A program made the translations under genes and the position numbers. Shown here piece by piece: positions 50,924 to 64,000 of a stretch of DNA of 64,000 nucleotides. This DNA comes from Bacteroidota bacterium. Lineage in GTDB: Bacteria > Bacteroidota > Bacteroidia > Chitinophagales > LD1. Positions within the stretch are counted from its first letter, which is position 1; every line of letters begins with the position of its first letter. The notes beneath the pieces are model-generated. The model had not been told where the DNA came from. It ran no database searches and saw only the letters and a list, made by a program, of their open reading frames with translations. Location of the stretch: assembly GCA_018267385.1 (NCBI GenBank), contig JAFDYN010000012.1:1-64000 (forward strand). Reading direction: 5' to 3'.

Positions 50924-52027
50924 TCAGTCATCTGCTGCGGGTAGCGCTACATAGAATGTAGCTCCCTGATCTATGGCGCCCTCTGCCCAGACCCGGCCGC
51001 CGCTGCGCGTCACGATACGCTGTACGATGGCCAGCCCTATACCTATGCCCTCATACTCCGTATCTCTGTGCAGCCGGGAGAATACGCCAAAAAGTTTATT
51101 CATGTACTGCATATCAAAGCCCGACCCATTATCACGTATGTGATAGATCACCTCGCTACCCTCGCGCTTTGCACCAGCCTCTACCACAGGCATATCTTTC
51201 TTGCCAGAGTATTTTATAGCGTTAGATAGGAGGTTTACAAAAACCTGCTTTAGCAGCTCACGGTCACCATTGGCGCAAGGCATATCCTGCTGTATGCGAA
51301 ATTCGGGTAGCTTTTTGACAGTAGCCTGTATCACCTCCAGTGCCTCTTGTATCAGTAGATTTACATCCACAGCGCGTGCCTTGATGCTCTGCTTGCCCAG
51401 CCTGCTAAACTCCAGCAGGCTCTCTATGAGACTGGCCATACGCTCTGCATTGCGGGTGATATTGCCAGTCAGCCGCATGCACTCTGTGCTGAGCTCTTTC
51501 TCGTGGTCCTCCATCAGAATCATAGCATAGCTATGCACAGCACGTAGTGGTGCGCGCAGATCATGAGATACAGAGTAGGTAAAGGCCTCCAGGTCTTCAT
51601 TCTTTTGCTTTAGCTCCTCATTCAGGTCACTCAGGGCTGCCTCCTGCTCATAGATGCTGATAAAGAACTTTACCTTATTGATCAGTATCTCGGGCTGAAA
51701 AGGCTTTGTGATAAAGCTGAATGCCCCTCTCTCATAACCTTTGAAAATATTGAGGTTGTCAGTATATACTGCGGATATAAAGATGAATGGCAACCTGGCA
51801 GTTCTCTCCTCTTCGCGTAGGATACCTGCCAGCTCATAGCCGTCCATCTCTGGCATCTGGATATCCAGCAGCGCCAGTGCAAAATCATGATGCAGTGTAG
51901 CGCGAAGCGCTTCATTGCCACTATAGGCCCTGATCAGCTCCACATCCAGATCTCGCAGCACAGTTTCTATCGCTACTAGGTTTTCCGGTTTGTCGTCTAC
52001 TATCAGTATTTTAGGTCTCCTGGTCAT
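50924..52027 (-). CDS. Response regulator-histidine kinase hybrid (REC-HisKA-HATPase)
   Basis: A 367-residue cytoplasmic protein: receiver domain (about 5-125; KILIVDDKPENLVAI, LALLDIQMPEMDG, ITKPF), a short coiled coil, HisKA with FTYSVSHDLRAPLRAV (phospho-acceptor His at about 156) and an ATPase domain with LLSNAIKYSGK, DNGSGFDM and GIGIGLAIVQRI. Having the receiver at the N-terminus lets phosphorylation by another kinase tune its own activity. It lies 24 bases after the large hybrid kinase. Confidence 0.92.
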   Translation of the reverse strand: MTRRPKILIVDDKPENLVAIETVLRDLDVELIRAYSGNEALRATLHHDFALALLDIQMPEMDGYELAGILREEERTARLPFIFISAVYTDNLNIFKGYERGAFSFITKPFQPEILINKVKFFISIYEQEAALSDLNEELKQKNEDLEAFTYSVSHDLRAPLRAVHSYAMILMEDHEKELSTECMRLTGNITRNAERMASLIESLLEFSRLGKQSIKARAVDVNLLIQEALEVIQATVKKLPEFRIQQDMPCANGDRELLKQVFVNLLSNAIKYSGKKDMPVVEAGAKREGSEVIYHIRDNGSGFDMQYMNKLFGVFSRLHRDTEYEGIGIGLAIVQRIVTRSGGRVWAEGAIDQGATFYVALPAADD

Positions 52028-52051
52028 GGTCAGAGATTTGATTCGCTAATA

Positions 52052-55000
52052 TTATTTGCTGAGCCACACTCTCATGAGTGACAGCAGACGCTCCACATCT
52101 ACAGGCTTGGTGATATAGTCACTCGCTCCGGCATCCATACATTTTTGTTTGTCTTCTTTCATAGCCTTGGCAGTGAGGGCTATGATGGGCAGCTCACGAA
52201 ACCGCTCCTGAGCCCTGATGCGCTGCATGGCCTCATAGCCATCCATCTCGGGCATCATGATATCCATGAGTACGAGGTTTATACCGGGATCCTTGTCCAG
52301 CATATCCAGCGCTATCTGGCCGTTCTCTGATTTGGCCACCTCCAGACCGCGCTCCCGCAGCACCTTAGACAGGGCAAATACATTGCGCATGTCATCGTCT
52401 ACGAGCAGTACCTTTTTGTTTTGGAAAATACTCTCACGGTCATAGAGCCCGGTGATGATCTTTTGTTTTGCCTCGGGCAGCAGGCTTATAGTGCGGTGTA
52501 GAAACAGCGCCGTCTCATCCAGCAGCCGCTCCTCGGATTTTACCCCCTTGATGATAATGGTCTCTGCGTACTTCTGCAGTTCTTCGTTTTCAGCGGGGGT
52601 CAGTTCTTTGCCGGTATAGATGATGATGGGTGGCAGCGACTCGCGTATATCCTGCAGCCGGTGTATCAGCTCCACACCACTCATGTCCGGCAGCCCCAGG
52701 TCCAGGACTATGCAGTCTATTTGCTGTACCCCGTAGAGTTCTATGGCTTCTGCACCATTTGACGCTTCATAGGTTTTGACATCACCATTTCCTATGAGCT
52801 TGCGCATAGCTATGCGTGCATGGGTGTCATCCTCTATGATGAGCAGATTTTTCACTTTCCTCTTCACCAGGTTCTCTATCCTGTTGAATGCTTCCTCCAG
52901 ATCGCTGTTTCGTATAGGTTTGGTGAGAAACTCTACCGCGCCCTCCTTGATGGGTGCCAGTGAGCGCTCATTGACCGACATGATATGGACCGGTATGTGT
53001 CGTGTATCGGGGTCATGCTTGAGCTGGGCCAGCACCTGGTAGCCATCTATACCGGGGAGGTCTATATCCAGTATAATGGCATGCGGACGGTACTGTGCGG
53101 CCAGTACCAGTCCATCCTCTCCTGTACCTGCCGCTATGCACTTGAATCCCTTGGCATGGCTCTGCCTGAGCAGGATACCGGCAAACTTCTGATCATCTTC
53201 TATGATAAGCACGAGGGTATCTCCTTCCTTTACTTCCTGCCGGTCGTCCTTGATAGTAGGATAGTTATACAGATGTTCATTCTTCTCAAATACCTGCACC
53301 GGCGGTGATACCGTCAGGGCTTTGGCGCCCTCTGCTGACATATGGTCCCCCTGCAGCTCTATAGACAGCAGCAGGGTAAAAGTAGATCCTTCGCCCACCT
53401 TGCTGGATAGGCTGATCTCACCACCCAGCAGCTTTGCCAGCTCCCGGGAGATAGAGAGGCCGAGGCCGGTACCGCCATATTTGCGTGAGGTGCTGCCATC
53501 GCCCTGGTGAAAGGCCTCGAAGATGGCCATTTGCTTATCTGCCGGGATGCCTATGCCGGTGTCACTCACGGCTATGGATATATGCCCACTGTCATGACGC
53601 TGTATGGCGAAACTTACAGTGCCCTGCGCAGTAAACTTGATGGCATTGGACAGCAGATTTTTTATGATCTGATCCAGTCGCTTGGTATCGGTAGTGATAC
53701 ATGCGGGCAGGCCGTCACCCAGGGTCAGGCTCAGTTTCAGGCCCTTATTCTCCGCCAGGTGGCGAAAATTTCTGCCTATATCATCGGCAAAGGATCTGAG
53801 ATCCAGGCGCGCCAGGTCCAGCGTCATCTTGCCGGCCTCTATCTTGGATAGGTCGAGCACCTCATTGATCAGACCCAGCAGATCCATACCGCTCTTATGG
53901 ATGATCTCTGCACTCTCTACCTGGTCCGGCGTCAGGTTCTTTATTTTATTGTCTGCCAGGTCGCGTGAGAGGATGAGCAGGCTATTGAGCGGGGTACGTA
54001 GCTCATGTGACATATTAGCCAGAAACTCTGACTTATACCGGCTACTCATCTCCAGTTGCTTTGATTTCTGTACTATATCTGCGCGGGCGGACTCTACCTC
54101 AGCGTTTTTGGCCTCAAGCACCTGCGCCTGTTCTTCCAGTTCCTCATTGGTCATCTGCAGCTCCTCCTGCTGCTGGCGCAGGGTCTGTGTCTGCTCCTCC
54201 AGTTCTTCATTGAGCTGCCGCAGTTCTTCCTGCTGGGTCTGCAGTTCCTCAGATTGCTGCATGGTCTGCTCCATCAGCTCTTCGGCCCGTGCCCGTGCCT
54301 GCGCAGCATCTATACCTATAGCTACATTATTGATCACCTGCGGCAGAAATTTCTTTTCAATCGCAGAGAAACCTGCGACCTTACCGATCTCTATGACACC
54401 GAGTACCCTCTCATCCAGCGGGAACGCGACCGCAATGATCTCACGCGGCCTGACCGACCCCATACTGCTCTCGATTTGAAAATACCCGTCAGTGATATCA
54501 GACACGATGATCATCGTATTGGCCGCTGCAGCCTGACCTGCTATTCCTTCGCCCCATGCTACTCTTTTTTGTGCCAAGGTTTTGCTATCCAGAGTATAGC
54601 CCCCTGCCAGAGTGATGTGCGCGCCATCCGGGTCTGTCAGGTATATAGCCCCTATATCTGCACTAAGGTATTTGCACACATAGTTGATAATGTTCTGAGC
54701 GAGCTCACCCGTCAGTTTATTGCCTTGCATCTGGCGAGCCAGCTCACTGGTGCCTGTCAGGTTCCAGTTTTTATCCTCATTCTCCTGCTCGGCTTTTTTC
54801 AGTGCGTTGAGATTGGTCCGGATGATGAAATAGACTGCAATGAGCACCAGCATGATAACTACCAGCAGCAATATAAATACCTGCATAAAGCTATCAGCAT
54901 CTTCTTTATTAGCTTTCTCGCGATCAGCGAGTAGCTCATTTTCCAGTCGCACGCAGAGTGCCACCTGCTGGCGTATGCGATCCAGTCTTTTTTTCCCTTC

Positions 55001-55432
55001 CGCATTTGCCAGCATTAGAGCCGCTGCGTCAAATCCCTTCGCCCGTCTGATGGCGATACACTTGTCTAGGTGGGCTATGTGGTCACCGGCCAGATCAGAG
55101 AGGGTCCGGATATTTGCCTGCTGAGCGGGGTTATCCTCGGTCAGCTGCTGCACAGTGCCTATATGTTGTCTTACAGCGATCTTGTCACTATCAAAAGGAT
55201 CCAGATAGTCTGCCTCTCCGGTGATGATATACCCTCTCTCTACCGTTTCTGCATCTTCGGCATATTGCAGTACCTGACCTAGCTCATAGAGGACCTGATG
55301 CGTATGTGCTACCCATGAGGTAGTGGCCATCCACTTTTCACTATTGCGGATAGAAGCGATGCCTACTCCCAGCAGAAGAGCGGTACACGCAGCCAGGCCC
55401 ATCAATATCTTTTTGTCCAGTGTGATTTTCAT
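52052..55432 (-). CDS. Large hybrid sensor kinase (CHASE3-GAF-HisKA-HATPase-REC-REC-REC)
   Basis: An 1126-residue sensor. The N-terminal membrane segment (about 8-26) and a second (about 184-205) bound a CHASE3 periplasmic domain. A GAF domain (about 220-375) and a long Gln/Glu-rich coiled coil (about 380-465) precede HisKA (FLANMSHELRTPLNS) and the ATPase domain (LLSNAIKFTAQ, DTGIGIP, GTGLGLSISREL). Three receivers follow, each with a phospho-Asp (ILDIDLPGIDG, VLDLGLPDMSG, LMDIMMPEMDG). Many inputs and three receivers suggest a phosphorelay hub for the two genes downstream. Confidence 0.94.
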   Translation of the reverse strand: MKITLDKKILMGLAACTALLLGVGIASIRNSEKWMATTSWVAHTHQVLYELGQVLQYAEDAETVERGYIITGEADYLDPFDSDKIAVRQHIGTVQQLTEDNPAQQANIRTLSDLAGDHIAHLDKCIAIRRAKGFDAAALMLANAEGKKRLDRIRQQVALCVRLENELLADREKANKEDADSFMQVFILLLVVIMLVLIAVYFIIRTNLNALKKAEQENEDKNWNLTGTSELARQMQGNKLTGELAQNIINYVCKYLSADIGAIYLTDPDGAHITLAGGYTLDSKTLAQKRVAWGEGIAGQAAAANTMIIVSDITDGYFQIESSMGSVRPREIIAVAFPLDERVLGVIEIGKVAGFSAIEKKFLPQVINNVAIGIDAAQARARAEELMEQTMQQSEELQTQQEELRQLNEELEEQTQTLRQQQEELQMTNEELEEQAQVLEAKNAEVESARADIVQKSKQLEMSSRYKSEFLANMSHELRTPLNSLLILSRDLADNKIKNLTPDQVESAEIIHKSGMDLLGLINEVLDLSKIEAGKMTLDLARLDLRSFADDIGRNFRHLAENKGLKLSLTLGDGLPACITTDTKRLDQIIKNLLSNAIKFTAQGTVSFAIQRHDSGHISIAVSDTGIGIPADKQMAIFEAFHQGDGSTSRKYGGTGLGLSISRELAKLLGGEISLSSKVGEGSTFTLLLSIELQGDHMSAEGAKALTVSPPVQVFEKNEHLYNYPTIKDDRQEVKEGDTLVLIIEDDQKFAGILLRQSHAKGFKCIAAGTGEDGLVLAAQYRPHAIILDIDLPGIDGYQVLAQLKHDPDTRHIPVHIMSVNERSLAPIKEGAVEFLTKPIRNSDLEEAFNRIENLVKRKVKNLLIIEDDTHARIAMRKLIGNGDVKTYEASNGAEAIELYGVQQIDCIVLDLGLPDMSGVELIHRLQDIRESLPPIIIYTGKELTPAENEELQKYAETIIIKGVKSEERLLDETALFLHRTISLLPEAKQKIITGLYDRESIFQNKKVLLVDDDMRNVFALSKVLRERGLEVAKSENGQIALDMLDKDPGINLVLMDIMMPEMDGYEAMQRIRAQERFRELPIIALTAKAMKEDKQKCMDAGASDYITKPVDVERLLSLMRVWLSK

Positions 55433-56714: not shown

Positions 56715-56745
56715 CAAAGATAGCAAATACTAATTTTAATAGCAA
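56715..56745 (-). promoter_or_regulatory. Promoter of gene 56351 with embedded operator-like element
   Basis: TTG (complement of 56743-56745), 20 bases and TATCTTTG (56715-56722) form a full consensus promoter. The spacer contains AAATACTAATTTTA (56725-56738), identical to 47820-47833, flanked by direct repeats TAGCAAA (56721-56727 and 56740-56746). An element between -33 and -7 is a classic repressor position. Confidence 0.65.
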
Positions 56746-56794
56746 AGATTATTAGAAACTACAACAAAGCGGAGAGATCTATATATACGTTCAT

Positions 56795-57043: not shown

Positions 57044-57976
57044 ATGAATCTACAACAACTCGAGTATATCATAGCCGTAGACCAATACCGCCACTTTGCC
57101 CGTGCAGCGGAGCATAGCTTTGTGACGCAGCCTACGCTGAGCATGATGATACAAAAGCTGGAGGATGAGCTGGGGCTCAAGATATTTGACCGTACTAAAC
57201 ATCCTATCACCCCCACGCCGGAGGGCGAGGAGATCATACGCCGCGCCAAGGTGATCCTGGCAGAGGCCAGCCATCTGAGAGACTACTCTCAGGAGCTGAA
57301 GGGTGAGATCACGGGAGACCTGCACATAGGCATCATACCCACACTGGCCCCCTACCTGCTCCCGCTCGTGCTGAAGAACTTCTCTGAAAAGTTTCCCAGG
57401 CTGAAGCTCTATGTGCGGGAGATGGTGACAGACGATATCATAGCCGCGCTCAAATCTGGCAAGCTGGAGATGGGCCTGCTGGCTACCCCGCTACATGAGC
57501 AGGGACTGCAGGAGCACGTGCTGTTTTATGAGGCTTTCTACGCCTATGTATCGCAGAGCGAGAAGCTATCTAATAAGAAGTACCTCCTGCCCAAACAGAT
57601 CAACCCTGATCACCTGTGGCTGCTACAGGAGGGCCACTGCCTGCGCAGCCAGATATTTAACCTCTGCGAGCTGAAGCAGCAGAGCAGCGATACGGAGATG
57701 CTGCACTATGAGGCAGGCAGCATAGAGACACTGATCAACCTGGTAGACCGATATGACGGCATCACCATCATCCCCCACCTGGCCATGCTAAACCTGAAGC
57801 CTAACCAAAAGAAAAAGGTACGCGAGTTTAGCAATCCCAAACCCGTACGCGAGATCAGCCTGGTGACCAAGGATACCTTCCCGCGCCATGTACTGCTGCA
57901 GCGCATACAGGAGGAGATCATCCGCTCGCTACCCGATGACGTAAACCCAAAGGCTAAGAAAATAATAGCGCTCTAG
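57044..57976 (+). CDS. oxyR: LysR-type peroxide sensor OxyR
   Basis: A 310-residue LysR regulator. The winged helix (about 1-60; LEYIIAVDQYRHFARAAEHSF, VTQPTLSMMIQKLEDELG) is followed by the sensor domain with Cys199 in EGHCLRSQ and Cys208 in NLCEL, the same numbering and 8-residue spacing as the redox pair of E. coli OxyR. It should form a disulfide on peroxide and activate antioxidant genes; none is adjacent. A half operator overlaps its leader, and its stop overlaps the convergent gene's stop (CTAG). Confidence 0.95.
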   Translation: MNLQQLEYIIAVDQYRHFARAAEHSFVTQPTLSMMIQKLEDELGLKIFDRTKHPITPTPEGEEIIRRAKVILAEASHLRDYSQELKGEITGDLHIGIIPTLAPYLLPLVLKNFSEKFPRLKLYVREMVTDDIIAALKSGKLEMGLLATPLHEQGLQEHVLFYEAFYAYVSQSEKLSNKKYLLPKQINPDHLWLLQEGHCLRSQIFNLCELKQQSSDTEMLHYEAGSIETLINLVDRYDGITIIPHLAMLNLKPNQKKKVREFSNPKPVREISLVTKDTFPRHVLLQRIQEEIIRSLPDDVNPKAKKIIAL

Positions 57977-58605
57977 CGCCAGTACTCCTCCTCCGGTCCC
58001 GTAGGTTTCACAGAAAAGGTGCGGCCGGTATATTGTTCTATCTTTTCTACGATCTCCTCCGCATCCCACGAGGGTATCTCCTTGCCAAAGCGTACCTGCT
58101 CCTTGCCGTCAGAGATATACATATTGCCGTCTGTGATCTGGTAGCGTATTAGCCTTTCATTGACCATAAACCCTATGGCTGCATTATTATCTTCCAGTGG
58201 ATGCTGGGTGAAATTCTCATCACCCGCCACACCTATTTCCTTGACTTGCGACAGATTAAACACCTTCTTTTTGACACCAAACAAGGAACGTAACGATATG
58301 GTCAGATGTTTATCATCTATCGCGATTTCTTCATTCTCTGTCAGTTTACTAATGAAAGATTTGGCGATCAGAAAGTAGAGCGCAACAAACGCAAGAACGG
58401 CCAGTAATGGTACGAGCAGGCCCGGCAACATACGGAATGATAAATCTGCCACTGAAAACAGGCTTAGAAGCATAATACCTGCGCCGATATATACCAGCGT
58501 ATAAACAGTCAGTCCAAACTTGATAGCCCAGGAGCGATTGGGGCGTAGGGCTATGTGCAGGCCGGAGGCGTCTGTGTCTATTTTGTATGTTTTCTCTATA
58601 GGCAT
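57973..58605 (-). CDS. Membrane protein with two helices and a PH-like domain
   Basis: A 210-residue protein (start at MPIEKTYKID, three codons inside the longest frame). Two membrane segments (about 30-52 and 60-84) are followed by a soluble domain (about 95-205) with alternating strands (EEIAIDDKHLTISLRSLFGV, FNLSQVKEIGVAGD) and a final helix (AEEIVEKIEQYTG), like bacterial PH-domain proteins. Function unknown. It is convergent with oxyR. Confidence 0.65.
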   Translation of the reverse strand: MPIEKTYKIDTDASGLHIALRPNRSWAIKFGLTVYTLVYIGAGIMLLSLFSVADLSFRMLPGLLVPLLAVLAFVALYFLIAKSFISKLTENEEIAIDDKHLTISLRSLFGVKKKVFNLSQVKEIGVAGDENFTQHPLEDNNAAIGFMVNERLIRYQITDGNMYISDGKEQVRFGKEIPSWDAEEIVEKIEQYTGRTFSVKPTGPEEEYWR

Positions 58606-58640
58606 AGTACCCAAGATAATAAGAAAACGCTATCCCTGCA

Positions 58641-59825
58641 CTACGGTGTTTTGACGGCAGGCTGGTGCATAGGTGGTAGCTTCCAGCGGCTTACCGCGGT
58701 ACGGATAGCCTGTATGGTGGGCTTGTCTCGCAGCAGTGTCCAGTCCAGCGTTTTGTCCATCGTAGTGTTATCATTATTGGAGTGGTAAAAGAGGATCGCT
58801 TTGACCAGCGGATACCTGACAGGCAGGTTGGCCAGCGCATCTGCAAACCACTTCTCCCTGCTGCCACCTACTCTCAGGCAGCCTATCTCAGAGAGCATGA
58901 CAGGCTTTTTGAAAACTGCAAGGCTGTCATAGTACACACCAAAGATATCGTTGAAACTCCACCACTGGCTCCACGGGGCTACGGTACCGTAGTTGAGCGT
59001 AGGTATACCTATCCAGTCTACATAGGCATCACCGGGATAGTACTCATTGAATTGCCTGTAGGCAGGGTGCGGGCTCCATATCCACTGTACATTCTTTGCG
59101 CCTGCGGCTATGAAGCGGTCGTGTACATGCTTCCATGCAGCGATGTATTCTTCCGGCTTGTTATTCTGCGGGCCCCAGGGATAGCGGTACGGGTCATTCA
59201 TCTCATGGCCCAGACGCAGATAGATATTAGCACCAAAAGTCTTGACCCTGCCGGCCCACTCATCTATGTAGGCGTCGTACTCACCTGCGGCTATAGCTTT
59301 CATGCCGCCCCAGTTGCGGTTTGTGATATCGCCCTTGGTCGGAAACTTTTCATTATCAAAATCATTCAGCCACGGCTCCCAGGTGATCATCGGTATAGAG
59401 CCTAGATCGTAGATGGCTTTGGCCTGATTGAAGGGAAACCGCTCATCAGGCTTGCTACCCCAGGCGCTGTATATCTGCACCACGGCAAACTTCATGTGCA
59501 GCGTATCTTCCAGCGCTACGATCGGCTCATAGGAGTCTGACTGCGTATTGTCATACGCGCCCCAGAGTATGGTATCAGGATGGCTGATGCGGTAGGTGCC
59601 TATGCGGTATGGCTGAAACCAGCTCAGATAGTCTGCACGTGATTTCTCCTGCGTGGAGACCACTACCTCGTGCTCTATTTCGGTCACTTTGGTACCGATG
59701 GTGGTCACTGCATCTTCTATCGGGCCTGAAGACTTCTGACCGGCATACGTCAGCGCCATGACCAGCGCTATGCCTATGCCAAAGGCCAGGACGGTAAGCG
59801 TAATGCGATACATAACTTTCTTCAT
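58641..59825 (-). CDS. Glycoside hydrolase family 26-like enzyme
   Basis: A 394-residue enzyme with an N-terminal membrane anchor (about 6-28). The catalytic acid/base is Glu208 in LRLGHEMNDP and the nucleophile Glu313 in MLSEIGC; WEPWLND and WIWSPHP are other GH26-like features. GH26 enzymes cut beta-mannans or mixed-linkage beta-glucans. It is the last gene of a three-gene operon with a membrane GT2 and an outer membrane TPR/barrel protein, so it probably trims or edits the polymer that operon makes. Confidence 0.85.
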   Translation of the reverse strand: MKKVMYRITLTVLAFGIGIALVMALTYAGQKSSGPIEDAVTTIGTKVTEIEHEVVVSTQEKSRADYLSWFQPYRIGTYRISHPDTILWGAYDNTQSDSYEPIVALEDTLHMKFAVVQIYSAWGSKPDERFPFNQAKAIYDLGSIPMITWEPWLNDFDNEKFPTKGDITNRNWGGMKAIAAGEYDAYIDEWAGRVKTFGANIYLRLGHEMNDPYRYPWGPQNNKPEEYIAAWKHVHDRFIAAGAKNVQWIWSPHPAYRQFNEYYPGDAYVDWIGIPTLNYGTVAPWSQWWSFNDIFGVYYDSLAVFKKPVMLSEIGCLRVGGSREKWFADALANLPVRYPLVKAILFYHSNNDNTTMDKTLDWTLLRDKPTIQAIRTAVSRWKLPPMHQPAVKTP

Positions 59826-59836
59826 TTAGTTTAAAG

Positions 59837-61462
59837 TTAGGACGGTTTCGTAATACTATCAAGACGGTCTTTATTCTCTGCTACTATCAGGTCCAGGTCT
59901 ACGCTATCCCAAGGGTCCTCCTCCGGCAGGTCCTGGCTCTCCCATACTGCTATCATGCCGCCGCAGCTCATGAGAAAGGCGATACCGGCAAAGCCCACCA
60001 TGCTCCAGGTACGCTCGCTGGTCAGCTCCAGCGCTGCCTCATGTACGATGAAGCTGCGGTGAAAAACGATGTACAGCACTGTGACCAGGAAGAGTACGAT
60101 ATGCGCGATCAGCGGGCGGGCAAAAGGGGTGAAACCTTTTACGGATTGCTTGGCTGTAGGGATGTATGGTATGGGGTGGTCTATGAGTGAAAGCACAAAG
60201 CCCATGAGAAATACCGGAAAGCAGGCAAACTTCAGCACCATACCCCGCCAGTGCACACCTCGCTCTGAGGCCGGGTGGCACATCCATAGTTGCACGTACA
60301 GATAGATGGCTACGCCAAAAATAGCTACCGGCAGCCAATGCACCAGAAACGGTACAAACTCCATCTGCGCCGGCATGATGCCAAACCAGAAAAATATGAA
60401 TGGGATAAGCAGGAAAAGAAAAGTAGTGAGGCCCGCCAGGTAGTACGTACCAATTGTGATGTACGACAGGCGCTGCCATCCCGTCAGGTTTCTGAAGAGG
60501 CGTGGCACCTCTGCAAAGAGTACCTCATGCACGCCCCTCGCCCACTTGAGCTGCTGCTTGCAGAAGGAGCCGAAGTCCTCCGGCACGAGCCCCCTGCTGA
60601 CCACTATGGGCGAGTAGATACTCCGCCATCCCGCTCCATGGATACGGATAGCGGTGACGAGGTCCTCTGCCAGGCCGTGGCCGTGGCCGCCTATGCTCTC
60701 CAGTGCCTCGCGGCGGAAGGTACAGTTGGCACCTATTGCTACCGACGCACCTATACCGTGCATACCCATCTGCGTAGGACCGTAGAAGCCATAGGTCTGC
60801 TCTGCTGCCCCCTGCGCGGTGAAGGAACGGTACTGATTGTAATAAGCCTGAGACACCTGTACGTAGCCTACATCAGGATCATCGAAATAACCAAGCACCT
60901 CATCCAGAAAATTTGGGAAAGGGATGTGATCAGGATCCAGCACGAGGATAAACTCTTCATCTGTCCGCTTCAGCGCTCCGTTGATCTTGCCGGCCTTGGC
61001 ACCCGGCAGGCCCACCAGCTCCAGCCATACGGCGCCATTGCGCTCCGCTACCTCACGGTAGCGTGGGTCGCGGGTATCGTCCAGCAGGTAGGTAGTATGC
61101 GGATAGTTGATCCTGGCGCAGGCTGCCAGCGTTTTGTCAAACATGCCCAGTGGCTCTCCGGGGCTGCTGGTGGTAAAGATGGCTACCCGCTTGCCCGCAG
61201 GTGCAGGACGCGGAGCAGGCTTGCTGATGTGCAGATAGCTGACCCAGATGATGATCATGCGCAGCATGCCCCACCAGAGTATTGCAGACAGGATCACAAA
61301 GAGCGGCAGCGAGGCCACATGCTCCTCACGAAACCACCAATCTGACAGCAGCAGGATACTGAGGCAGCCGCCCACTACCAGCGCCCCGAGCAGAAACTTC
61401 TCCCGCGCTGTGGCCTGCAGGGCCTCCCGGTATTGCCAGAAACTTTTAGTATCAGCGGGCAT
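59837..61462 (-). CDS. Processive membrane glycosyltransferase, family 2 (cellulose synthase-like)
   Basis: A 541-residue polysaccharide synthase. Two N-terminal helices (about 27-75) precede the GT-A domain (about 90-330) with LDDTRDPRY, DPDH (metal binding) and QQLKWARGVHE, a QxxRW-type motif of processive synthases. About five more helices follow (about 335-525). There is no PilZ domain. It overlaps the upstream outer membrane gene by 11 bases and precedes the GH26 gene by 11, so all three are one unit. Confidence 0.9.
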   Translation of the reverse strand: MPADTKSFWQYREALQATAREKFLLGALVVGGCLSILLLSDWWFREEHVASLPLFVILSAILWWGMLRMIIIWVSYLHISKPAPRPAPAGKRVAIFTTSSPGEPLGMFDKTLAACARINYPHTTYLLDDTRDPRYREVAERNGAVWLELVGLPGAKAGKINGALKRTDEEFILVLDPDHIPFPNFLDEVLGYFDDPDVGYVQVSQAYYNQYRSFTAQGAAEQTYGFYGPTQMGMHGIGASVAIGANCTFRREALESIGGHGHGLAEDLVTAIRIHGAGWRSIYSPIVVSRGLVPEDFGSFCKQQLKWARGVHEVLFAEVPRLFRNLTGWQRLSYITIGTYYLAGLTTFLFLLIPFIFFWFGIMPAQMEFVPFLVHWLPVAIFGVAIYLYVQLWMCHPASERGVHWRGMVLKFACFPVFLMGFVLSLIDHPIPYIPTAKQSVKGFTPFARPLIAHIVLFLVTVLYIVFHRSFIVHEAALELTSERTWSMVGFAGIAFLMSCGGMIAVWESQDLPEEDPWDSVDLDLIVAENKDRLDSITKPS

Positions 61463-62957
61463 GCTTCAGAAAGGTGACGAGTAAATGAATAGATGTATAA
61501 TGGCTCGCATAGAAGAAAGCACTGGTGTAAGCATAGTCTGCCCCCAGAGATATCCTGCGCGATAGTTTGAAGTCTATGTTTGCAGAAAGGCGGTATGGAT
61601 GAAAGACCTCTTTGTAAGATCCCGAGGCCAGGTAAATCACGTCTGCCGATGTTTTATCCAGATAGAGATACGGATTCTGCGCCTGCGCATAGAAGCCTAT
61701 ATCTCCCTTGATGCCTATGGAGACAAATCTGGCCGGCCGGATGCCTATGGCTATGATGGCCGAGTGTATATGCTGCCGCAGCGGAGTGAAGTAGGGGTCA
61801 TATATCCCTGCTATCTGCTCACCGGCGGTATAGGTGGCCAGTATCTCGCTGAGCGACTTGACAGAGCGGTAGGTACTGCGCGCACTGGTAGTGTACCTGT
61901 AGCCATATCCGAACCGGAAACTAAATACAGATGCCTTGACTGGCTGTGATAGCGCCCAGACGCTGGCAGTCTGGATAGGATTATGATCATTGAAAAACTG
62001 ATAACTGTACGCAGCCTGAGCGGACCAACTATTTTCTTTGTTCAATATCAATGAAGCGCCCAGCGTATTCTGCATCAGAGAGAGAGAGGCACTGCTCAGC
62101 GTACTGAGGTATGGTGCCCTGCCTGCCTGAAGCTGCAAGGAGAGGTACTTATAGAGCTTCTGGCGCACGGTCACATCTCCCGTCCAATCGGTGCCTGCAC
62201 TGAAGCTTTTGAATACCCCAAGCGAGAGGGAAACATCCGTACCCGCTTTGCCAAAAACAAACTTATTGCCCAGCGACGCGGCGAGCGTCACATTCCATTT
62301 GCCTGCTGCATAAAACTCCCGGTCGGTAGCCTGCACTTTAGGATTCAATAGCCAGGAATACGATAGACCACTCTCTACACTAATACCTATCACCTGCATG
62401 GGCTGGTCATCTCTCTGGTAGCCCACCGTATACCTAAGGTAAGGCGCTGTCGCTTCATCCAGCGCGAGACTGAGATCCTGCGCAGTCGCATTGTCGGGAT
62501 AGCGGTCCAGTACGTCGCGCGTATCCCTGCGGGCAGGCTGGTAGCGGGCATACCAGCGGTATATATTGCTCCTGATCAGGTGCGCCTCTGCATCATTTGT
62601 ATCTTTTGTCATCACTTTATCCAGTTGTCTGAGAGCGGCATTCAGCCGCTCCGCCTCATAGAGCATCCGTGCATAGTCCAGGCGCAGCTTAGTATTGTCA
62701 GGGTCCTGATCGAGCGCCAGGTCGAAACTCTTTGCTGCACCTCTATCGTGTCCTGCCCAGTGAGCTACCTGCCCGTAGTACCACAGCAGGGAGACATCAC
62801 TGCTACCCGATGCCTCAGGGCGCAGTATCCGCTCAGCCGCGCGAAACTTGTGCTGCACGACCAACTGCTGCGCCTGTGTGGTAGCATCTGACTGCGCTAT
62901 ACAGTATGACTCTGCGGACAGGCAAAGCAATAAAATGCTGATGGTACGGATCCCCAA
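61452..62957 (-). CDS. TPR plus beta-barrel outer membrane protein (YaiO-like), probable polysaccharide exporter
   Basis: A 501-residue secreted protein with a signal peptide (MGIRTISILLLCLSAESYCIA). TPR-like helices fill about 25-180 (DPDNTKLRLDYARMLYEAERL, DAEAHLIRSNIYRWYARYQPA). The C-terminal 300 residues alternate like a beta-barrel and end near FYASHYTSIHLLVTFLKHAR. This layout matches YaiO-like and BcsC/PgaA-type exporters. It is first in the operon with the GT2 synthase and GH26 enzyme. Confidence 0.82.
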   Translation of the reverse strand: MGIRTISILLLCLSAESYCIAQSDATTQAQQLVVQHKFRAAERILRPEASGSSDVSLLWYYGQVAHWAGHDRGAAKSFDLALDQDPDNTKLRLDYARMLYEAERLNAALRQLDKVMTKDTNDAEAHLIRSNIYRWYARYQPARRDTRDVLDRYPDNATAQDLSLALDEATAPYLRYTVGYQRDDQPMQVIGISVESGLSYSWLLNPKVQATDREFYAAGKWNVTLAASLGNKFVFGKAGTDVSLSLGVFKSFSAGTDWTGDVTVRQKLYKYLSLQLQAGRAPYLSTLSSASLSLMQNTLGASLILNKENSWSAQAAYSYQFFNDHNPIQTASVWALSQPVKASVFSFRFGYGYRYTTSARSTYRSVKSLSEILATYTAGEQIAGIYDPYFTPLRQHIHSAIIAIGIRPARFVSIGIKGDIGFYAQAQNPYLYLDKTSADVIYLASGSYKEVFHPYRLSANIDFKLSRRISLGADYAYTSAFFYASHYTSIHLLVTFLKHAR

Positions 62958-63132: not shown

Positions 63133-63168
63133 AAAAATGCGATGGGCCCGGCGACCTGCCGAGCCCAT
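63133..63168 (-). terminator. Terminator of the T9SS gene at the right edge
   Basis: ATGGGCCCGG (63142-63151) pairs with CCGAGCCCAT (63159-63168) through one wobble. On the minus strand a run of five Ts follows (63133-63137). It lies 28 bases past the stop of the partial gene at 63197. Confidence 0.75.
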
Positions 63169-63196: not shown

Positions 63197-64000
63197 TTAT
63201 TCTTTCACTACCTTCCTGGTGTATGCTATTTCACCCGCTTGCACCCTCACTGTATAGACACCCGCAGGATACCCGGAGAGATCTATCGACTGAGAGGTGC
63301 TGCCTGTAGTGCCCAGGTCATGCGACCATACCTGCTGGCCTATCACATTGTATAGAGCCAGGCTGATATTGGCCTGCTGCGGCAGCTCTACGAATACGGC
63401 GCACCTGTCCTTTACAGGGTTTGGTACCACGCTCACTCTCGCAGCCTCAGAGATGGTAGTGACACCTGTATGAGGCTGTACCACTGCATCTATATTCACA
63501 TTATCCAGATAGATGGCGTTGCCGTGATTGCTCAGATTGACGAAGGCAAATTGCACGCCTGCGATGCCATCCATAGCCGCCAGAGATATGGTAGAGTCGC
63601 GCACCCAGTTAGTATCAGCCGGTGCAAATACAGAATTGCCATATAGTGCATGAGCGGTGGCGAGGCCTGCACCTCCCTTCTTCCACAGCGTAAACCATGT
63701 AGCACCACAGTCGGTAGAGTATTGTACAAAGAGGGAATCCCTTGACGTTGACCTCTTCTGTGCATAGGCATAGTCAAATTTCAGTTTGCTATCCGCTGTG
63801 ATACCTTGCGTAAAGTCCAGTACCGGCGTATAGAGGTAGTCATACTGGCCACGGATATTCTGCTGTGTATAGTTGTCCAGGTAGGCACTGTTAGATGACA
63901 GACCAAAACCTCCGGCAGTAGTTTTCTGAGCCCAGGCTGTCTGGTTGTCTGGATTGACCACAGACCAGCCCGCAGGCGGGAATGTACCCTCAAAGCCCTC
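63197..64000 (-). CDS. T9SS type A sorting domain protein (3' part, truncated by window edge)
   Basis: The reading frame is open to the right edge, so the gene begins outside the window; 267 residues are visible. They start EGFEGTFPPAGWSVVNPD, a phrase of MAM/cleaved-adhesin (choice-of-anchor-like) domains, which fill about 1-180 with paired beta-sandwich phrases such as FVQYSTDCGATWFTL and YLDNVNIDAV. The last 80 residues are a T9SS type A sorting domain (VVPNPVKDRCAVFV, LYNVIGQQVWSH, GYPAGVYTVRVQAG, YTRKVVKE). It is exported and probably surface-attached. Confidence 0.88.
   Translation of the reverse strand, partial: EGFEGTFPPAGWSVVNPDNQTAWAQKTTAGGFGLSSNSAYLDNYTQQNIRGQYDYLYTPVLDFTQGITADSKLKFDYAYAQKRSTSRDSLFVQYSTDCGATWFTLWKKGGAGLATAHALYGNSVFAPADTNWVRDSTISLAAMDGIAGVQFAFVNLSNHGNAIYLDNVNIDAVVQPHTGVTTISEAARVSVVPNPVKDRCAVFVELPQQANISLALYNVIGQQVWSHDLGTTGSTSQSIDLSGYPAGVYTVRVQAGEIAYTRKVVKE

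Follow-up and report, generated by a model that had tools for sequence, protein, structure and literature searches.

A conserved TPR-barrel, GT2 and GH26 gene trio in Bacteroidota as a likely minimal exopolysaccharide secretion system

Results

Organization of the locus

The window that we analyzed, a stretch of 64,000 nucleotides from a Bacteroidota genome, contains three minus-strand genes that are read in the order TPR-barrel exporter, GT2 synthase, GH26 glycanase (Table 1). The exporter and GT2 genes overlap by 11 bases (61452-61462), and GT2 and GH26 are separated by an 11-base gap (59826-59836); thus, the open reading frames reproduce the three genes, the coordinates, the overlap and the gap given in a preliminary description of this DNA. 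Pfam profiles matched each of the products: GH26 by PF02156 (34.4 bits, cut-off 20.2), GT2 by PF13632 (2e-20) and the exporter by TPR_19 (5e-8).

Table 1. Positions of the trio, its predicted domains and motifs, and adjoining features (window coordinates)
Feature	Position	Strand	Description
Terminator-like hairpin	63142..63168	-	Strong, 11 pairs; upstream of the trio; consensus match only
TPR-barrel exporter gene	61452..62957	-	501 aa, TTG start; signal peptide, short TPR domain, C-terminal beta-barrel
TPR helices	62448..62888	-	Exporter residues ~24-170; model secondary structure
Transmembrane beta-barrel	61473..62441	-	Exporter residues ~173-495, ~16 strands; model
GT2 synthase gene	59837..61462	-	541 aa, processive-type, with membrane channel (predicted)
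GT2 S100-P101	61160..61165	-	Donor pocket, nucleotide-stacking region; alignment places it around BcsA Tyr149; near-invariant in family
GT2 D128-D129	61076..61081	-	DDG-like motif of donor pocket; DD in 74/74 cassette-free survey loci
GT2 DxD (D176-P-D178)	60929..60937	-	Metal/UDP; invariant in 53 homologs
GT2 QQLKW (303-307)	60542..60556	-	QxxRW acceptor motif, Arg to Lys; Q303, Q304, K306, W307 invariant in 53
GT2 PYIPTAK (432-438)	60149..60169	-	Gating-loop-like (BcsA FxVTxK); P432, I434, T436, K438 invariant in 53
GH26 gene	58641..59825	-	394 aa, membrane-anchored periplasmic glycanase (predicted)
GH26 N-terminal membrane anchor	59742..59804	-	Residues ~8-28, MKKVMYRITLTVLAFGIGIALVMALTYAG; hydropathy
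GH26 Glu208	59202..59204	-	Acid/base (HEMN); invariant in 41; aligned with HE of CtLic26A
GH26 Glu313	58887..58889	-	Nucleophile (SEIG); invariant in 41; aligned with catalytic E of CtLic26A
213-aa membrane protein gene	57973..58614	-	26 bases downstream of the trio

Because the predicted hairpin parts the trio from the gene upstream, the trio probably forms a separate transcription unit, with the hairpin marking its start. The upstream gene (63197-64000, same strand) encodes a T9SS-sorted secreted protein (choice-of-anchor J), which in the genome runs past the window edge to 686 aa. Scanning the window for the Bacteroidota-type promoter TTTG-N-TANNTTTG returned three matches (one at 56715-56746) against an expectation of 0.43, none of them upstream of the trio. 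The downstream 213-aa gene is probably co-transcribed with the trio. It was rejected as a component of the trio, which it adjoins elsewhere only in the same-genus locus L035, as was a LysR/OxyR-like gene that is kept within the genus only. A tandem pair of large sensor-kinase/response-regulator hybrids (367 and 1126 aa; 50924-55432) lies about 3.2 kb from the trio.

Conservation and distribution of the trio

A GT2 profile run against some 85,000 species genomes recovered 114 relatives, the best 80 of which constitute our survey set. The preliminary description had proposed surveying the trio across Bacteroidota, and all three genes are present at 74 of these best 80 loci, which belong to Bacteroidota, Ignavibacteriota and Chlorobiota. 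Within the survey loci the genes mostly overlap or are separated by gaps of a few bases. The trio is a conserved unit, and its arrangement is beyond chance. Among the six loci lacking the complete set, contig ends truncate three (L064, L110, L112), two have a different gene at the exporter position (L071, L098), and at one (L040) no exporter was recognized. At both L071 (816-7919) and L098 (2-3451), the replacement upstream of GT2-GH26 encodes a very large repetitive secreted protein.

Hosts of the trio include Hymenobacter, Algoriphagus, Salinimicrobium, Segetibacter and many uncultured Bacteroidota, as well as Ignavibacteriota and Chlorobiota assemblies. A full trio also occurs on a contig labeled Candidatus Saccharibacteria (L083), which is probably misbinned. 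Evenly drawn samples of the phylum and of the class contain few close relatives of the GT2, and inside the window's own genus and family these are patchy; the trio is therefore an accessory cassette. In one same-genus locus (L009; G003:C143) a stop codon interrupts the GT2 gene, representing either a decayed gene or an assembly error.

The exporter

The structural model of the exporter (pLDDT 93.3) finds its best solved matches in BcsC (Z 26.8), PgaA (Z 25.9; 2.5 Å over 274 aa) and PelB (Z 24.8), after which all rows fall to Z 19 or less and are TPR-only. The PgaA barrel (4y25) aligns with residues 164-497 in the model comparison, and TPR_19 is present in 53 of 53 exporter homologs. By these matches the protein has the TPR plus outer-membrane beta-barrel architecture of synthase-dependent secretion, and it models as an exporter of the BcsC/PgaA/PelB type. 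The label 'YaiO-like' that it had been given is not borne out: PF19413, on which E. coli YaiO scores 92.7, has no match in the window's exporter, there is no YaiO match, and profile comparison (hhalign) with E. coli YaiO returned a probability of 0.4%, and we reject membership in the YaiO family. The PgaA equivalog TIGR03939 scored 27 bits on the exporter, against a cut-off of 366.65.

The GT2 synthase

Residues 18-530 of the GT2 model (pLDDT 86.7) align with BcsA (Z 29.8, 2.7 Å), as expected of a BcsA-like synthase that forms its own membrane channel, and the model also superposes on the barley (1,3;1,4)-beta-glucan synthase CslF6 with Z 19.7. In addition to the DxD, QQLKW and gating-loop-like motifs of Table 1, the (A)ED motif is invariant or nearly so across 53 homologs. 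The protein nevertheless scores 156.1 bits on the CelA/BcsA equivalog TIGR03030 against a cut-off of 699.1, and 45 bits on the PgaC model against a cut-off of 422. Pfam finds no PilZ domain in its 541 residues. Neither the trio nor the recurrent neighbors of the 80 survey loci include BcsB, an absence that refers to the locus only, and GGDEF has no match in the window's assembly, which is 96% complete. A relationship to E. coli YaiP was considered and rejected, there being no significant similarity.

In the GT2 tree the family forms one clade, whose sister comprises the ApsS proteins of Sinorhizobium and Rhizobium together with L011, a Bacteroidota GT2, with SH-aLRT 93 (<95 star); E. coli BcsA lies outside this grouping. 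The preliminary description had held that its reading would be refuted if the GT2 clustered with the synthases of cellulose or hyaluronan, accompanied by their usual accessory genes; instead, the synthase belongs to a clade of its own, sister to ApsS, and there is no BcsB in the locus. A GT2 relative that is 40% identical (L126:5749-9227) adjoins a GH2-like TIM barrel protein, not a GH26.

The window's GT2 keeps the UDP-type donor pocket, and the assembly contains no RfbG over cut-off and a GalU-like enzyme that scores just under cut-off (321 bits). Because the DD pair is kept, no RfbG exceeds cut-off and a GalU-like enzyme is present, the donor would be a UDP-sugar, most simply UDP-glucose.

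The GH26 glycanase and its link to the synthase

A PF02156 score above gathering and the catalytic pair E208/E313 place the third protein in GH26. Its profile matches the lichenase CtLic26A, the nearest solved structure, at 1e-47, and the best mannanase at 4e-11; the substrate is thereby read from the nearest characterized relative, at about 25-30% identity. The genome has no other GH26 match, and the protein is therefore unlikely to be the foraging enzyme of a mannan locus.

The linkage of GT2 to GH26 recurs at the ApsS/ApsE loci and in genome G030, which carries L011: ApsE of S. meliloti and the partner of the L011 GT2 are both GH26 proteins. In the next tier of GT2 relatives (L131-L152; about 400 bits, with an LCDEA/LCDEG motif), 18 of 22 synthases carry a GH26 domain at the C-terminal end of the same polypeptide. 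The sister grouping of the synthases (SH-aLRT 93) and the match between the GH26 proteins (E 6e-15) show that GT2 and GH26 share descent with ApsS and ApsE. Because the pair is of common descent and is fused in these relatives, we strongly infer from sequence comparison that the GH26 acts on the polymer made by its synthase.

A branch with CDP-sugar genes

At six of the 80 survey loci (L106, L107, L109, L111, L112, L113), a cassette of glucose-1-phosphate cytidylyltransferase, CDP-glucose 4,6-dehydratase and SDR genes (RfbF, RfbG and SDR) lies inside or beside the trio. RfbF (TIGR02623) and RfbG (TIGR02622) exceeded curated cut-offs in all three loci scanned with NCBIfam (L107, L109, L113), and a search of five genomes for RfbG found, in four of them, no copy over cut-off other than the one at the locus. 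The GT2s of these six loci are changed at both S100/P101 and D128/D129, with DDT replaced by DNT, SDR, TDR or DST. Five GT2 columns separate the six from the rest; random sets of six divergent homologs were set apart by 0.01 columns on average and never by more than 1.

A second search, whose loci are not a random sample since a CDP-type query was used, added eight loci with altered pockets. All seven with contig room hold the cassette; the eighth (L186, pocket DST) is cut where its contig ends at the GT2. The single locus with an unaltered pocket lacks the cassette. Combining the survey six with L183-L185 and L187-L190, the Asp pair is altered in 13 of 13 cassette loci, whereas DD is kept in 74 of 74 survey loci without the cassette. 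In SpsA, N3 of uracil is coordinated by an Asp of the pocket motif, and a GT2 relative in which this Asp was mutated retains <2% activity (PMC3849446); because of this contact, a change at the pocket Asp fits a cytosine base.

A first tree had suggested two separate origins of the CDP trait, which shrank to one change after sequences were added and the pocket columns omitted, a count that leaves out the contig-cut L186. Because this amounts to one independent pair only, the association of pocket and cassette carries no phylogenetic statistical power and may reflect a single evolutionary origin. A GH26 change, Tyr279 to Phe, was also considered as a CDP marker: it held in five of five loci of the first set, but Tyr is retained in three of the seven CDP loci found later, which have Asp or Glu at 281, and we discarded it. 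The literature that we searched yielded nothing relevant on CDP-using GT2 synthases. On balance, we give close to an even chance to a donor switch in one branch of the family, in which a CDP-activated 6-deoxyhexose took the place of a UDP-sugar.

Discussion

A synthase, a TPR-barrel exporter and a membrane-anchored glycanase were proposed in the preliminary description as the parts of a synthase-dependent exopolysaccharide system, and the matches of the models to BcsA and to BcsC, PgaA and PelB bear this out. We consider it quite likely that the trio constitutes a minimal system of this kind. The GT2 would polymerize a UDP-activated hexose, most likely UDP-glucose, and pass the growing chain through its own BcsA-like membrane channel; in the periplasm beside this channel, the anchored GH26 would trim, release or edit the chain, as BcsZ does for cellulose; and the TPR-barrel protein would carry it over the outer membrane in the manner of BcsC, PgaA and PelB. 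The system would operate with neither a BcsB gene in the operon nor a PilZ domain, and dependence on c-di-GMP is unlikely.

From the sequence relationships of the GH26, the polymer is reasonably likely to be a beta-glucan, with mixed 1,3;1,4 linkage as its single likeliest form, for which our confidence falls somewhat short of even. That the product varies across the superfamily (i.e., an arabinose-containing polymer in the sister APS system, and CDP-sugar genes in another branch) counts against a glucan. Of the two polymers suggested in the preliminary description, a mixed-linkage glucan is partly upheld, the GH26 being by far closest to the CtLic26A lichenase, but mannan does not stand as its equal. 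A beta-mannan or glucomannan, edited by a mannanase-type GH26, would agree with the facts that mannanases form the majority of characterized GH26 enzymes and that mannanase structures are also matched by the GH26 profile. However, the disparity between the lichenase and mannanase scores and a synthase closest to BcsA make this reading improbable, and the closeness of the GH26 to CtLic26A makes mannan less likely than beta-glucan.

Another UDP-sugar could instead serve as donor, namely UDP-GlcNAc or, by analogy with the rhizobial APS operon, UDP-arabinose or UDP-xylose. The GT2 does have ApsS as its sister clade, and ApsS operons hold UDP-xylose/arabinose genes, but nucleotide-sugar genes adjoin the trio neither in the window nor at the great majority of homologous loci, as would fit a housekeeping donor, and we regard these alternatives as unlikely. 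Somewhat more doubtful is that the GH26 serves as a transglycosylase that cyclizes or remodels the chain, such that the operon yields cyclic or short glucans, periplasmic or exported, comparable to what has been proposed for the pseudomonad GH17-GT2 proteins. Transglycosylation would be permitted by the retaining mechanism of the GH26 family. The GH26 domains fused to the synthase C-terminus in the wider relatives follow a layout logic like that of GH17-GT2 (PMC10237404). But a dedicated BcsC/PgaA-like exporter within the unit suits a long exported chain. We know of no GH26 cyclase.

The closest described system to the trio is the operon for APS, the arabinose-containing polysaccharide of Sinorhizobium that is controlled by CuxR, through which c-di-GMP acts (PMC9495663). 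Both hold a GT2 synthase and a GH26 in one operon, the synthases being sister clades and the GH26 proteins 25% identical (E 6e-15, a single comparison). Unlike the trio, the APS operon includes UDP-sugar genes and encodes two DUF995 proteins, and the annotated genes shown beside it include no TPR-barrel; uxs and uxe are absent beside the window trio; and in contrast to the c-di-GMP control of APS, the window's assembly is without a GGDEF match. The preliminary description had overlooked that GT2 and GH26 were already known as a pair from this operon.

With the cellulose system (BcsA-BcsB-BcsZ-BcsC) the trio shares a full-length synthase fold, a gating-loop-like motif, a periplasmic endoglycanase and a TPR-barrel exporter, but it has neither BcsB in the locus nor PilZ, GH26 replaces GH8, and its exporter of 501 aa is dwarfed by the much longer BcsC. 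The PNAG system (PgaABCD) likewise combines a TPR-barrel exporter, with a PgaA barrel matching at Z 25.9, and a processive GT2; the trio differs in having no deacetylase and no PgaD. The rhizobial mixed-linkage glucan synthase BgsA (bgsBA) is, like the window's GT2, BcsA-like and devoid of a PilZ domain; it binds c-di-GMP via its own C-terminal domain (PMC5567048). The short L119 sequence, probably BgsA, falls outside the clade of the window's GT2. In the GH17-GT2 'Orphan' proteins of pseudomonads, a glycanase is coupled to a BcsA-like GT2 (PMC10237404), but there the GH17 is N-terminal and in one chain, whereas the GH26 of the trio is a separate membrane-anchored protein.

Although the pairing of GT2 with GH26 is already known, the compact arrangement of three genes, exporter included, appears to be undescribed: no account of the trio was found in the literature searched, whose scope was outside subscription journals. 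The trio would represent a compact and recurring three-gene exopolysaccharide machine of Bacteroidota and their relatives that dispenses with two features of cellulose synthase, its PilZ domain and the BcsB gene. Should the CDP branch prove real, it would include a processive, channel-forming GT2 that makes its polymer from a CDP-6-deoxyhexose. Such a branch would be a natural experiment in the donor change of a processive synthase, with a short list of pocket residues, and its product might be a new class of 6-deoxyhexose polymer.
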